Below, piece by piece: positions 5,422 through 36,933 of a stretch of 44,720 bases of DNA. Position 1 is the stretch's first letter. Each line of letters starts with the position of its first letter. This stretch comes from Candidatus Peribacteria bacterium RIFCSPLOWO2_12_FULL_55_15 (GTDB lineage Bacteria; Patescibacteriota; Gracilibacteria; Peribacterales; Peribacteraceae). The notes under the pieces are model-generated. The model was given only the letters and a program-made list of their open reading frames with translations. It was not told the DNA's origin and ran no database searches. The stretch is from assembly GCA_001789045.1 (NCBI GenBank), contig MFYG01000007.1, positions 1 through 44,720 on the forward strand, given 5' to 3'. Made by a program: the position numbers and the translations under genes.

Positions 5422-5457
5422 CCCCTCACCCTAACCCTCTCCCAATGGGAGAGGGGA
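5422..5457 (+). repeat. REP-like palindromic repeat A, copy 2
   Basis: CCCCTCACCCTAACCCTCTC plus a short loop and GGGAGAGGGGATG. It covers the last codons and the stop of the RlpA-like gene (5431) and the upstream flank of the YbaB gene, so the repeat has supplied the C-terminus SPLPLGEG of its neighbour. Confidence 0.8.
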
Positions 5458-6508: not shown

Positions 6509-6550
6509 GTGTCACTCTGAGCTCGTGTCATCTACGCTCACCACGACACA
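6509..6550 (+). repeat. Palindromic repeat B, degenerate copy
   Basis: GTGTCACTCTGAGC ... CTACGCTCACCACGACAC resembles the TGTCA-core-GAGCGTAGTCGA family seen at 34132-34222 and elsewhere. It lies between the RlpA-like and 3D-domain genes. Confidence 0.55.
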
Positions 6551-21218: not shown

Positions 21219-21383
21219 TGGGGGTGATCGTACGCATTGGGCGCTCTACTCTTCAATGAATAGCTATTGACGGCAAGCGAGTGGATACGAATGGTGTGCG
21301 ATCTCTCCGAGGTACATGAGGAAACTCCTCCGCGGAACAACAACAAAAAACCCTTGAAGAGATACGCGCAATATTTGTACTCG

Positions 21384-21409
21384 TGGTTCGACTCCGCTCA
21401 CCATGACAT
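21384..21409 (-). repeat. Palindromic repeat B, half copy
   Basis: On the minus strand GTCATGGTGAGCGGAGTCGA, a member of the GAGCGTAGTCGA family, directly follows the ctpA stop (21412). The rest of the 21219-21411 gap shows nothing I can assign. Confidence 0.7.
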
Positions 21410-31578: not shown

Positions 31579-31644
31579 CATTGTCACCCTGATGGTTCCG
31601 CCCGTCACCATGACACGGGCGGATCGTCACGAAGGGCGACAATG
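31579..31644. terminator. Nested palindrome between convergent genes (repeat B family)
   Basis: Outer arms CATTGTCACCCT / AGGGCGACAATG and inner arms CCGCCCGT / ACGGGCGG form nested hairpins between atpG and the carbonic-anhydrase-like gene. It could terminate transcription from both sides; there is no strong T-run. Confidence 0.55.
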
Positions 31645-32601: not shown

Positions 32602-34128
32602 ATGCCAGCGGCCCCCGCCTCCCCCCGCCGCGAGACGCTCTTCTGTCTCGCCCTCGTCACCCTCCTCAGCTTCCTCGCGTACGTCCCGCAATTCTGGACC
32701 CCGCAGGCATTCTTCTGGGACGAAAACTACCACATCGCCTCCGCCCAGAAATACCTCAACCGCACCTTCTTCATGGAGCCGCATCCGCCGCTGGGAAAGC
32801 TCGTGATCGCCGCCGGAGAAGCCCTCCTCAACCTCAACGAGCGCGATGACCAGTTCATCGGCACGGATTATGCAAAGGCCCCGCCCCCCGGCTTCAATTT
32901 CGCCGGATACCGGCTCTTCCCCGTGCTCCTTGCCTGGCTCACCGCCCCAATCCTCTTCCTCGCCCTTGCCATCGCCCTCAGGAGTCCCATTATCGCACTC
33001 CTCACGAGCTTCCTCTACATCTTCGATACGGCGCTCATTGTGCACCTGCGCGGTGCGATGCTCGAGTCGCCCTATCTCTTCGGGAGCGCGCTCACGCTTC
33101 TCGCCTTCCTGATGCTTCGGGCACGGCAGGAAAAGCCACTATGTCACCTTGAGCCTGTCGAAAGGCGACACTTCTTCTTCGCCTCTTTCCTCTTTGGTCT
33201 CGGCTTTGCGATGATCATGCTCACGAAAGTCCTCGGACTCGTCCTCATTCTCCTCCCCCTCGTCCTCCTCTTTGAGTGGCGCAAGGATTTTCCGCGCATC
33301 TTCCGCTTCGTGGCGGCTTCCGGAAGCACGTTCCTCCTCCTCTATGTCGCGGTATGGCAGGCACACTTCGCACTCGGAACCCGCATCAACCCCATCCTCC
33401 CAGATCAAGGTTTCTATCAGGCATCGGCGGAGTACAAAGATATTCTCCAGAGGAATGCCGTCCGGTCTCCCCGTTCCTTCCCGATCATGCTCAGAGACTC
33501 GTTGCGGTTCGTCGGACACTACTCCCGCGGCGTCCCGCGGCTCGATCTGTGTAAGGCCGACGAAAACGGAAGTCCCGCTTTCCTCTGGCCTTTCGGTGGT
33601 CGTTCCATCAATTACCGCTGGGAAACGCCGGACGGCGTCGCGTACAAGTACCTCTACCTTCAGGCCAACCCCGTCGTGTGGTGGGGCGGACTTCTCGGCG
33701 TCCTCCTCGCCATGAGCCTCCTCCTCGCATCCTGGACGCTGCCATTGAAGGAGAAACTAAAAAATCCAACACTGCTCTTCACCTTCCTCATCCTCCACTG
33801 CGGCTTCATGGGGGGGGTCTTCCTCCTCGACCGCGTCCTGTACACGTACCACTACTTCTTCCCGCTCATCGTGAGCTTCTTCCTCCTCGGCCTCTCCCTC
33901 CTGGAGCTACGGCACATTCTCCAGTGGCGCCTCACGGAGAGTAGGCAGATCACAATCTTCCTCGGACTTGGAGTAACAGTCTTCCTCGGTTTCCTCTTCT
34001 TCAAGCCACTCGCCTACTACGAGCCCATCACGGACGACGCCTTCAAGAGACGCTCATTCTTCCCCCTCTGGGAACTCCACTGCGTGCACTGCCCACGGGA
34101 AAGCATGTTTGTGCAGGGAGTACGGTAA
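32602..34128 (+). CDS. Protein O-mannosyltransferase-like GT39 (PMT family)
   Basis: About 508 residues, polytopic. The first loop has FFWDENYHIASAQKYL and FMEPHPPLGKLVIA, the PMT signature (Asp-Glu and HPPLGK) for dolichyl- or polyprenyl-phosphate-mannose donors; the C-terminal half holds RVLYTYHYFFPL. Glycosylation would occur on the outer face of the membrane, e.g. of the Thr/Ser-rich surface proteins in this window, which is inference. CHLEPVERRHF (residues ~180-190) is encoded by a palindromic repeat in frame. Upstream frame extension to 32494 overlaps the divergent gene and is rejected. Confidence 0.88.
   Translation: MPAAPASPRRETLFCLALVTLLSFLAYVPQFWTPQAFFWDENYHIASAQKYLNRTFFMEPHPPLGKLVIAAGEALLNLNERDDQFIGTDYAKAPPPGFNFAGYRLFPVLLAWLTAPILFLALAIALRSPIIALLTSFLYIFDTALIVHLRGAMLESPYLFGSALTLLAFLMLRARQEKPLCHLEPVERRHFFFASFLFGLGFAMIMLTKVLGLVLILLPLVLLFEWRKDFPRIFRFVAASGSTFLLLYVAVWQAHFALGTRINPILPDQGFYQASAEYKDILQRNAVRSPRSFPIMLRDSLRFVGHYSRGVPRLDLCKADENGSPAFLWPFGGRSINYRWETPDGVAYKYLYLQANPVVWWGGLLGVLLAMSLLLASWTLPLKEKLKNPTLLFTFLILHCGFMGGVFLLDRVLYTYHYFFPLIVSFFLLGLSLLELRHILQWRLTESRQITIFLGLGVTVFLGFLFFKPLAYYEPITDDAFKRRSFFPLWELHCVHCPRESMFVQGVR
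33142..33171 (+). repeat. Palindromic repeat B inside the GT39 coding sequence
   Basis: TGTCACCTT-GAGCCTGTCG-AAAGGCGACA: inverted arms around a GAGCNNGTCG core, the same family as 34132-34172. It lies in a loop between membrane helices and is in frame. Confidence 0.8.
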
Positions 34129-34131
34129 TTG

Positions 34132-34222
34132 TGTGTCACCCTGAGCGTAGTCGAGGGACAAAGGGCGACACAATGACTTGTCGATGTGATGGTTCGACTA
34201 CGCTCACCATGACACATCGACA
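34132..34222. repeat. Two adjacent palindromic repeat B elements in opposite orientation
   Basis: 34132-34172 has arms TGTGTCACCCT / AGGGCGACACA around GAGCGTAGTCGA; 34179-34222 has arms TGTCGATGTG-ATGGT / ACCAT-GA-CACATCGACA around TCGACTACGCTC. They sit in the spacer between the convergent GT39 and MT-GT2 genes and are the best preserved copies here. Confidence 0.9.
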
Positions 34223-34226
34223 TTGT

Positions 34227-36002
34227 TCATTGGTGCCTAATTCGTAATTCCCAAAGCTCCCGCAATGTCCGCAAAATCACCCGCATGTTCGCTCCGGTCT
34301 GCTTTCCCGAACGGCGCGGGTAATGCGCAACATCCACTTGATGCCAACGAATACCGGCCCGCTTTAGATTATAAAAAAACTCCGCATTGAAGAGCGCCCC
34401 TGTTGCCACTGTCGGACAGCAGCGTTGCCAGACATCCCGCCGGAACACTTTCATCGCGCAATTCACATCACGCACCCAAATACCGAGGAAAACCCATGAG
34501 AGCAATCCGAAGAACTTTGCGTTGCATTTGCGAAGAAATGGATCTGCCCGCTTGCGCCTGCGGCCGACAACGACGTCGTACCCCCTCTCCCCCCGCCCGA
34601 TCCGAACGGGATCGTTCGGGCGGGTAACCCTTCCCCCGGGGGGGAGGGAATATCCCATCTGCCCTCCATCCTTAAGAAACGGCAATAACCTCTCAAAATC
34701 TCTCGGATCGAATTGCCCATCACTATCCATAAAGGCAATCAGATCGGTCGTTGCGGCATCACATCCCGATCGGACTGCTGCACCGTAGCCGAGGTTCTGC
34801 GGATGGGTGATGGTACGGAGATGTACTGTGTCATTCCGAGCGTAGTCGAGGAACGACACGCCTTCTGTCATTGTTCGACTACGCTCACCATGACACGCCT
34901 GCATTTTTTCGAGAATCTCCCCCGTCCCATCCCTCGATCCATCATCAACCACAATAATCTCCCCCTCTACCCCTCTCTCTCCCATCCATGCCCGCACCGC
35001 GCCCACGGTTTGGGCAATGTTTCCCTCCTCGTTGAGGCAGGGAAGGACAATGGACACAGTCTCCGTCATGCCGAGCGGAGATGGAGGAGAATCCGTGACA
35101 GCTTTGGAAGCGATGAGTCCGATATTCCCCGCACGAAATGGCAGAATCCACTGCTCCCCACGCAGCAGCCGAAGGAAACCACCGATGTATGCCTTGCATC
35201 GCCGCGGCAATGGGCACAGATGCAACCAGTACTCGATGGGATAGTCATTCCGGACGCCGAAGACGTCGATATCATTAAACCCCGCCCGCCGGAACAGCGC
35301 CCGCATGGTCCCCTGTGTATGCAGGTACGTGTGTTCAATATCAATCATGGGGCAGCGTTCACCAAGCAAGCGCGCAGTCCAGGATGCAATGTTATGGTTG
35401 ATGAAGAGCGCCACCCCCCCAGGGCGCAGGAGCGCAAAGCAATCCCGGACACATTGCACCGGATCCTGGAGATGATCGATTGTCTGGAAGCAGGTGATGA
35501 CATCGAACCGCTCACGGGAAAAAAGCGACGTCGCGAAAAGACCATGGCGTATCCCCGGTCGCACGGATGCAGGCGCAGACTCTACGGCATGGAGACTGGG
35601 CTCAACACCTTTCACAGGGGAGCAGCCCAGCGACCGGGCCTCGAGGAGCATAAAACCGTTGCCACACCCAATATCGAGGTACGACCAGGATGTGGGCTGC
35701 CCATGCAGACGCCGGAGAGCTTGCTGAAGGTACCTCCGGTACGTCCTCCGAATGGCGCCTTCCTGTTCCGCATAGGTATACCTGCTCGCAGCGTACAGCG
35801 CTGCGAGACGCAGAGGATCGACAAGGGTTTTTGGGTACACGAGGCCACATCGCCCACATCGGAGCATGCTCTCGTGCAGACGATCGGGGGAACGCCGTGC
35901 GGAAAAGACCTCCGGATTGAGATCCTCGGGCGCAAAATTCCGCGGGTACAACTCTCGCGCAAAGTCATTCGTACCGCAGAGAATGCAGACAGTGTCTGGC
36001 AT
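34227..36002 (-). CDS. Fusion of a SAM methyltransferase and a GT2 glycosyltransferase
   Basis: 591 residues from the ATG at 36002. N-terminal zinc-binding-like Cys pairs (CILCGTND, CGRCGLVY) precede a class I methyltransferase (LDIGCGNGFMLLEA, ITCFQTIDHLQD, LRPGGVALF). After a linker comes a dolichol-phosphate-mannose-synthase-like GT2: VSIVLPCLNEEGN, IIVVDDGSRDGTG, AFMDSDGQFDP, DVVVGRRRKRADPF and FLGIWVRDVNCAMKVFRRD. The linker (35064-35100) and two internal sites (34581-34664 and 34828-34899) are made of palindromic repeats in frame. Starts and stops of the three minus-strand genes are 4 nt apart (36003-36006), so it is in an operon with the split transketolase. Likely role: envelope glycan methylation plus polyprenyl-phosphate sugar synthesis. 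Confidence 0.85.
   Translation of the reverse strand: MPDTVCILCGTNDFARELYPRNFAPEDLNPEVFSARRSPDRLHESMLRCGRCGLVYPKTLVDPLRLAALYAASRYTYAEQEGAIRRTYRRYLQQALRRLHGQPTSWSYLDIGCGNGFMLLEARSLGCSPVKGVEPSLHAVESAPASVRPGIRHGLFATSLFSRERFDVITCFQTIDHLQDPVQCVRDCFALLRPGGVALFINHNIASWTARLLGERCPMIDIEHTYLHTQGTMRALFRRAGFNDIDVFGVRNDYPIEYWLHLCPLPRRCKAYIGGFLRLLRGEQWILPFRAGNIGLIASKAVTDSPPSPLGMTETVSIVLPCLNEEGNIAQTVGAVRAWMGERGVEGEIIVVDDGSRDGTGEILEKMQACHGERSRTMTEGVSFLDYARNDTVHLRTITHPQNLGYGAAVRSGCDAATTDLIAFMDSDGQFDPRDFERLLPFLKDGGQMGYSLPPGGRVTRPNDPVRIGRGERGYDVVVGRRRKRADPFLRKCNAKFFGLLSWVFLGIWVRDVNCAMKVFRRDVWQRCCPTVATGALFNAEFFYNLKRAGIRWHQVDVAHYPRRSGKQTGANMRVILRTLRELWELRIRHQ
34581..34664 (-). repeat. REP-like repeat A relative inserted in the GT2 domain
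   Basis: 84 bp with CCCGCCCGATCC / GGATCGTTCGGGCGGG arms and TAACCC-TTCCCCCGGGGGGGAGGGAA similar to copy 3. It splits the conserved FLKDG/YDVVVGRR junction with 28 residues (GGQMGYSLPPGGRVTRPNDP...). Confidence 0.8.
34828..34899 (-). repeat. Double palindromic repeat B inserted in the GT2 domain
   Basis: TGTCATTCC-GAGCGTAGTCGA-GGAACGACA followed by TGTCATTGT-TCGACTACGCTC-ACCATGACA. Encodes CHGERSRTMTEGVSFLDYAR + NDT between GEILEKMQ and the conserved HPQNLGYGAAVRSG. Confidence 0.88.
35064..35100 (-). repeat. Palindromic repeat B fragment in the domain linker
   Basis: GTCATGCCGAGCGGAGATGG plus GGAG encodes SPPSPLGMTE in the linker between the methyltransferase and GT2. Confidence 0.6.
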
Positions 36003-36006
36003 GGCA

Positions 36007-36933
36007 TTACGCGGGAACCCTGCACACTTCCTCAATGCGTTTGCAGATGGATGGAACCGTGAGCCCTGCACAGGCACGCAGGTATTCCTGTGACCCTGCA
36101 TACGTTGCAAAACCATCGGGTGCGGCACAAAGGAGATGCCGGACCGCCAACCCCTCCAAGGAGAGCGCCTCGGCCACGGCGCTTCCGAGCCCTCCGATCC
36201 GGCTGTGCTCCTCCAACGTGACGAGCAGAGGGGTCGCCGCCGCCGCCTTCCGCACCGCCTCCACATCAAGCGGCTTCACGGTATGCATACTGAGGACGGA
36301 AGCACGCACGAAACCTCCCTGCAGACGATCCGCAATCTCCAGAGCTCTCTCCAGCATCGTGCCGGAAGCGATGAGCGTGAGATCTTGCCCTGATCGCATC
36401 TCGATCGCCCGCCCGATCGTGAGCGAGAGAGGTTCCATGTGCAACGTCGGCTCCCCCGCCTTGCCAAGGCGCAGGTAGCAAGGACCATCCTGTTCCACGA
36501 TTGCATGGACAAGCGCTTCGGTCTCGAGCGGATCGCCGGGGCAGAGCACCTTCATGTTCGGCAAGCTCCTCATGACTGCAATGTCTTCCAGCGCATGATG
36601 CGTCGAACCCATGTGACCATAGCTGTATCCCCCGCCGACCCCAACGATACAGACCGGCAGGTTGTGGTAACAGACGTCATTGCGGATGTGCTCGAAACAA
36701 CGGAACGTCACAAAAGGGACGATGGAGTACACAAAGACCCTCCTGCCGCTGAGAGCAAGGCCCGCGGCGACCCCGACCATATTCTGTTCAGCGACTCCCG
36801 CGTTGAGATACTGGCGTCCAAGAGTGTCCCTGAACTCTTCAAAAACAGTGAAACCGAGATCGCCCGTGAGGAGCATGATGCGCGGGTCGCGCTTCGCGAT
36901 GGCCAGCAGTGTCTTCACGAATGTGGTTCGCAT
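36007..36933 (-). CDS. Transketolase, C-terminal (pyrimidine-binding plus C) subunit
   Basis: 308 residues, no N-terminal TPP-diphosphate domain. The catalytic Glu is in NAGVAEQNMVGVAAGLAL; the C-terminal domain has LLVTLEEHSRIGGLG. This is the second half of a split transketolase whose first half is the next gene (4 nt apart). Split pairs are common in archaea and in gene clusters for unusual sugars, alongside the SDR and GT genes here. Two-carbon transfer for a surface sugar or pentose metabolism are both possible. Confidence 0.9.
   Translation of the reverse strand: MRTTFVKTLLAIAKRDPRIMLLTGDLGFTVFEEFRDTLGRQYLNAGVAEQNMVGVAAGLALSGRRVFVYSIVPFVTFRCFEHIRNDVCYHNLPVCIVGVGGGYSYGHMGSTHHALEDIAVMRSLPNMKVLCPGDPLETEALVHAIVEQDGPCYLRLGKAGEPTLHMEPLSLTIGRAIEMRSGQDLTLIASGTMLERALEIADRLQGGFVRASVLSMHTVKPLDVEAVRKAAAATPLLVTLEEHSRIGGLGSAVAEALSLEGLAVRHLLCAAPDGFATYAGSQEYLRACAGLTVPSICKRIEEVCRVPA

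Follow-up and report, generated by a model that had tools for sequence, protein, structure and literature searches.

Short palindromic sequences lie in frame inside two neighbouring glycosyltransferase genes of Candidatus Peribacteria bacterium RIFCSPLOWO2_12_FULL_55_15, raising the question of whether they are mobile elements that have entered coding sequence and are translated as part of the proteins. The genes occur in a stretch of 44,720 nucleotides (assembly GCA_001789045.1, contig MFYG01000007.1, positions 1 to 44,720), which we refer to as the window, and the palindromes were first pointed out in a reading made from its letters alone (the sequence-only reading). The window is contig 7 of the source genome (G000; 895,810 bases in 24 contigs, 96% complete), which we compared with a set of 59 genomes of relatives. 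We find that the inserts very probably belong to two families (A and B) of short non-autonomous palindromic repeats of the Peribacteria lineage, retained in genes as in-frame loops. The features at the locus are the following.

32602..34128, plus strand: gene for a GT39 (PMT-like) protein O-mannosyltransferase with one single-unit insert (Pfam PMT, 6e-25; PMT_4TMC, 3e-15).
33141..33171, plus strand: family A single unit, read as LCHLEPVERRH (model R1, 36.3 bits, E 2e-6 genome-wide).
34227..36008, minus strand: methyltransferase-GT2 (MT-GT2) fusion gene with two internal palindrome inserts (Pfam Methyltransf_23 and Glycos_transf_2).
34828..34896, units 34828-34859 (plus) and 34865-34896 (minus): family A dimer, read as ACHGERSRTMTEGVSFLDYARNDT (48.5 and 46.5 bits).
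34581..34664, no strand: family B (CCCTCTCCC type) nested palindrome, read as GQMGYSLPPGGRVTRPNDPVRIGRGERG (homologue gap and recurring 17-mer).
35064..35100, no strand: possible degenerate half unit (VTDSPPSPLGMT) at the MT/GT2 junction (contains GTCATGCCGAGC).

We aligned the proteins with their homologues and looked for gaps at the repeats. Such gaps coincided with the repeats at 33141-33171, 34828-34896 and 34581-34664. Orthologues of the GT39 protein are at most 59% identical, with matches in 34 of the 59 relatives, and the nearest named relatives by this protein are Candidatus Peribacteria and Peregrinibacteria metagenome-assembled genomes. The residues PLCHLEPVERR coincide with a gap of 9 residues in nearly all of 19 homologues; the clear exception, L063 (G013), carries a different insert, TPPLHPPPKGG, at this loop. 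This gap and the model match confirm the in-frame palindrome proposed within the GT39 gene at 33142-33171. The insert peptides as read include CHGERSRTMTEGVSFLDYARNDT and LCHLEPVERR.

The two GT2 repeats had been described as splitting junctions that are normally contiguous, and the alignment agrees. The dimer encodes 24 residues that fall on a 21-residue gap in 20 of 20 GT2 homologues; its units have E values of about 1e-9 each, and its predicted fold is far stronger than that of shuffled sequences (z -7.2). The family B insert falls on a 29-residue gap, of which L035 alone retains 3 columns. It holds a CCCTCTCCC-type arm and an inner 17-mer that is seen again in a second gene of G000 (L150/L425); equally GC-rich shuffles fold just as well (z -0.8). 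In an AlphaFold model of the GT2 domain (pTM 0.83, mean pLDDT 84), the sole segments with pLDDT below 50 are residues 64-74 and 146-156, which lie within the inserts (58-81 and 135-163, model numbering). Model confidence and secondary structure together suggest that both inserts connect regular elements as loops; for the other genes discussed below, loop position is judged from the alignments.

The third segment in this gene, at 35064-35100, had also been called a hairpin. The repeat arm GTCATGCCGAGC is indeed present, and the segment marks where methyltransferase homologues stop and GT2 homologues start, but the hairpin is not convincing. Because its fold is at the level of shuffles (z -0.2) and it does not fit the family model, membership is unproven, and it represents at most a degenerate or half unit. 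The two halves of the gene are separate open reading frames (ORFs) in relatives. Neither of the two relatives with close methyltransferase homologues showed a GT2 gene next to them; in one of these, G026, it is on another contig. The fusion may possibly be a product of the palindrome, although the repeat at the junction is weak.

We then counted the repeats across the G000 genome, using a covariance model (model R1) with E values up to 0.04 for family A, and obtained 76 units at 55 places. The concern that the repeats might not recur elsewhere in the genome is thereby excluded. The family A consensus, derived from 28 copies, is GTGTCA-nnnY-GAGCGTAGTCGA-Rnnn-YGACAC. Units are mostly 32 bp long and occur singly or as head-to-head dimers of ~66-83 bp. 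The core GAGCGTAGTCGA, allowing at most one mismatch, has 53 matches in 0.9 Mb compared with 1 for the reversed word, and its recurrence is therefore not due to chance. All 28 copies keep TGTC unchanged, and most of the outer pairs can form in only about half to two thirds of the copies. At four inner base pairs the changes compensate each other, with both sides altered in 42 of 112 cells, and the whole-stem covariation score is 0.43, against 0.20 +/- 0.02 for shuffles and at most 0.15 for slid controls. The stem has 4 strongly covarying base pairs followed by GAGC-GTAG-TCGA; a length of 8 bp is reached only by admitting G.A, A.G and C.T mismatches. GTAG sits in the loop, where relatives show GCAG, GGAG or GAAG. 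A related word, TGAGCGNAGTCGAA, is present in 34 of the 59 relatives with almost no control matches, and several genomes prefer another base at its N.

Family B, with the consensus CCCTCTCCC-n-GGGAGAGGG, gave 43 matches per strand against 1 in the control, and its copy number in G000 is at least 41. Of the 41 distinct copies examined, 14 are intragenic, 7 coincide with gene ends and the other 20 are intergenic. The CCCTCTCCC palindromes often provide the last codons of an ORF (SPLPAGEG-stop; 7 of the 41 copies, for example L431, L443 and L137:6601). At C1:26036-26081 of G000 (L392), the half unit GTGTCATCCCGAGCTCC stands in tandem beside a full unit, which suggests growth by slippage. 

The exact palindrome was absent from the viral contigs searched, and nothing similar was seen in the plasmids searched. 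When the literature was searched for the core, all papers obtained were apparent chance matches to primers or unrelated sequence.

A majority of the family A places, 34 of 55 (62%), lie within long ORFs, with Pfam support for all but one of the 34. The genes hit encode Ser-, Lys- and Ile-type tRNA synthetases, SufB, 6-phosphogluconate dehydrogenase (6PGD), transketolase, HMG-CoA reductase and CarA, as well as a PurF-like protein, PrmC, two UvrD helicases, two P-type ATPases and phosphomannomutase (two copies). When genes were called by codon usage, with training on the same genes, 31 of the 55 places fell inside genes, 7 overlapped an edge and 17 lay between genes. Single units account for 25 of the 34 in-gene places and pairs for the other 9; two units are found at 12 of the 21 extragenic places. 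Among the relatives, G028 has 23 of 47 places in genes and G011 only 3 of 35, indicating that in-gene tolerance or activity varies by lineage.

The reading frames of the in-gene copies were informative. The 32-bp unit can be read in six ways, one of them with two stops and another usually with a single stop. The four open frames are used by 9, 11, 10 and 9 in-gene units (39 of 43) and the two closed frames by 1 and 3 (4 of 43), the stop-free frames of both orientations being used about equally. This argument is partly circular, since broken ORFs are not called genes, and we therefore checked the coding flanks at all 55 places. None had same-strand coding flanks that were clearly broken, and two dimers were ambiguous (C17:11280 and C23:20526). 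In-gene copies are not visibly decayed: 95% of their inner-stem cells are paired, compared with 98% in extragenic copies.

Two other explanations of the in-frame copies are weighed by these data. The palindromic byp elements of yeast mitochondria are a precedent for inserts that the ribosome bypasses, and the dimers found here do fold into strong hairpins. However, the in-gene copies keep the frame, avoid frames with stops and include none that is clearly frame-breaking, which a bypassed element would not need, and we consider it highly improbable that the inserts go untranslated through ribosomal bypassing or removal from the RNA. Equally far-fetched is the proposal that the added residues have long been functional parts of the enzymes and only resemble the repeat. 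Some sites are indeed held in common: the insert in SerRS has a degenerate form in G005, the sister of G000 in the GT39 tree, so that some inserts are older, and the insert site in the thioredoxin reductase (TrxR) loop is common to several genera. Against this, the residues are missing in most relatives, and unrelated proteins use one and the same 32-bp DNA in four different frames.

We next asked how much length the repeats add, comparing orthologues from five relatives (pseudouridine synthase was excluded from this comparison on account of its length, and ACS had no matches in the five). Net gains were 11 to 13 residues in LysRS, 9 in GT4, 7 in 6PGD, 6 in PurF and 6 in PrmC, and about 9 in IleRS relative to uninserted orthologues; 6PGD showed a similar gain over solved structures. 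SufB gained a net 4 residues for an 11-residue repeat in both G000 and G028, and the copper-type P-ATPase showed zero length change in both genomes relative to homologues aligning across the repeat. These net values of 0 and 4 in the alignments speak against plain insertion for the P-ATPase and SufB copies.

The same two proteins belong to a group in which one loop bears a repeat in both G000 and G028. The group also includes a thioredoxin-reductase-like protein and a protein with a methyltransferase-like SAAPGSKTTQI motif; the last has family B in one of the two genomes and family A in the other. In G013 and G005, inserts that look like family B, assigned by peptide pattern and not by a DNA model, occupy the IleRS, phosphomannomutase (PMM) and epimerase loops that family A has hit in G000. 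In the P-ATPase tree, G000 groups with G022, G013 and G005, all of which lack the repeat, and a clade of G000 with G028 is rejected (p-AU 0.006). The two P-ATPase copies differ by compensating stem bases (ACGCT/AGCG and ACCCT/AGGG), and the G002 orthologue has CTGAGC....GCGAAGGG at the repeat site. G028 falls with G002 in the SufB tree, apart from G000 (96/86). Judged from these trees and alignments, the P-ATPase and SufB copies of G000 and G028 would best be explained by separate acquisition in the two genomes; local transfer of a very short tract could also account for them.

These results bear on a third explanation, in which short-tract conversion or template switching lets a palindrome copy overwrite an existing loop or a partly similar sequence. 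The unchanged length of the P-ATPase in two genomes that do not form a clade, the compensating stem differences, the sequence at the repeat site in G002, and the small gain in SufB of genomes that lie apart in its tree all favour it. The net gains in LysRS, GT39, GT4 and GT2 are near full length, however, and insertion followed by trimming of flanking loop codons would yield the same pattern everywhere except in the ATPase. We regard conversion as a serious but minority possibility. The more specific proposal that palindromes enter genes transposase-free by short-tract templated replacement, with the same codons overwritten independently across genera, is supported by the P-ATPase (no length change) and SufB (four residues added), and we hold it slightly more tentatively still. 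Insertion and subsequent trimming fits most genes, and templated replacement fits the ATPase better.

The sequence-only reading had suggested a search for a linked REP-type transposase, and none was found in G000 or the 59 relatives. The only match to PF01797 (Y1) in the 96%-complete G000 assembly is a truncated IS200 TnpA, although a RAYT gene might lie in the missing part, and G028 and G011, which have 68 and 59 family model matches, have no PF01797 match. Just one weak family model match lies near 20 Y1 loci. Genes for RAYT (REP-associated tyrosine transposase) do occur in the relatives G024, G006 and G033 (L086, L084 and L090), and the size, palindromy and head-to-head dimers of the repeats match those of classical REP/REPIN elements mobilised by such enzymes. 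Since the repeats also have no terminal GTAG tag, we think this origin improbable. In G006, the RAYT-like transposase (L084:787-1968) appears to form an in-frame fusion with an RdgB/HAM1 nucleotide pyrophosphatase (NCBIfam).

The best supported explanation is that near-neutral palindromes, selfish or arising as by-products, arrive in random phase and orientation and are kept where the frame is open and the loop tolerant. The repeats would land in either orientation and in any phase, perhaps moving as single-stranded hairpins through a host repair or replication process or through a transposase acting in trans. In-gene copies would survive only in a loop, in a stop-free frame and with a net length change divisible by three. 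The protein would then be made with extra residues (about 4 to 29 where measured) or with a replaced stretch of equal length, and would stay functional. We infer that the elements are not useful but selfish and near-neutral; the insert-bearing proteins are probably active. Several observations weigh against this explanation. The HMG-CoA reductase, PMM and transketolase copies show little or no clear net insertion, and simple insertion does not explain the P-ATPase copy, which adds no length. The in-gene share depends partly on ORF calls, and rare broken genes might escape notice. Translation of the inserts and activity of the proteins are predictions from the DNA, and mobility, with no mobilising enzyme found, is deduced from distribution only. 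Overall, the earlier idea of a mobile element tolerated in loops is supported, with the GT2 inserts predicted to form loops and with the qualification that in the ATPase the repeat replaces sequence rather than adding to it.

Other copies in the window lie between genes or at a gene end.

34133..34215, no strand: family A dimer between the convergent GT39 and GT2 genes (41.6 and 49.2 bits; fold z -4.7).
21378..21409, minus strand: extragenic family A single unit (27.1 bits, E 6.6e-4 genome-wide), with no spanning ORF.
6509..6549, minus strand: weak family A-like unit (17.4 bits, E 0.29 genome-wide).
31587-31616: weak extragenic copy (family model).
5435..5455, no strand: perfect family B palindrome at the 3' end of a 357-codon ORF (SPLPLGEG-stop).

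Of the four intergenic sites proposed at the outset, the one at 34133-34215 is thus strong and that at 21378-21409 good, while 6509-6549 and 31587-31616 are weak only.

Some individual genes had unusual features of their own. A class I (Ile/Val-type) tRNA synthetase (L158:975-4199) contains an internal histidine phosphatase domain (PF00300, residues 534-715), and a copper-type P-ATPase (L153:546-3860) is followed in the same frame by a multicopper oxidase domain (residues about 823-941). The SufB orthologues L284 (G048) and L285 (G044) read through 7-10 TGA codons, and these relatives may recode TGA.

Same-site acquisitions across genera offer a natural experiment on transposase-free movement and on the making of new protein loops. 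On the practical side, predicted proteins will repeatedly contain insert peptides such as CHPERSRRVT, FDYAQGDT and SVVEG, which may mislead annotation and alignments.

The phenomenon is of a kind already known, from Rickettsia palindromic elements (RPEs) (PMC3767692) and from CGTC and GTAG repeats read in frame in several phyla (PMC3733652). In the open-licence literature we found no description of family A or of such palindromes in the candidate phyla radiation, and none that combined an in-gene majority with the lack of a transposase, or that reported independent same-site acquisition without length change. The CGTC superfamily, which includes RPE-4 and RPE-6 and has no dedicated transposase, is defined by an unpaired terminal CGTC (or TGTC/CCTC), a stem of 8-9 bp, a loop of 4-5 nt and mostly head-to-head dimers (PMC3733652). 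Family A resembles it in its TGTC start, alternative complementary stem residues, head-to-head dimers, some copies within ORFs and the lack of a repeat-flanked transposase, a likeness judged by description and not by consensus. In view of these shared features, the statement in the sequence-only reading that the sequences are unrelated to the Rickettsia elements may not hold. Most REP copies are reported to be intergenic (PMC3733652), in contrast to the 62% of places in genes here. GTAG REPs and REPINs with RAYT (PMC3733652, PMC3116915) are similar in size, palindromy, dimers and in-gene copies (Opitutus terrae and others), but in family A GTAG lies in the loop and is not a terminal tag, and no RAYT was found in G000. 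Wolbachia palindromic elements, as cited in PMC3767692, likewise appear to be palindromes in the genes of a reduced genome.

The likeness to Rickettsia drawn in the sequence-only reading extends to palindromes in frame within genes and matching gaps in homologues, and, for GT2, to the modelled loop position. In-frame palindromes known so far include different families at the same site and lie at exposed positions (PMC3767692, PMC3733652). As here, the Rickettsia elements are short in-frame palindromes in enzymes (tRNA synthetases, helicase, epimerase, O-antigen ligase), solvent-exposed, with different families at one site in different species. Unlike them, the repeats described here belong to another phylum, have another core (GAGCGTAGTCGA) and are mostly 32-bp units, compared with inserts of 68-192 bp in Rickettsia, and independent acquisition at a site is backed here by a tree test. 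Earlier reports of in-frame palindromes come mainly from Rickettsia and Wolbachia, and the habit is a minority one among REPs. In this candidate-phylum bacterium with a genome below 1 Mb, most of the palindromes lie in housekeeping genes for many unrelated enzymes, whereas nearly all copies in another member of its family are found outside genes.

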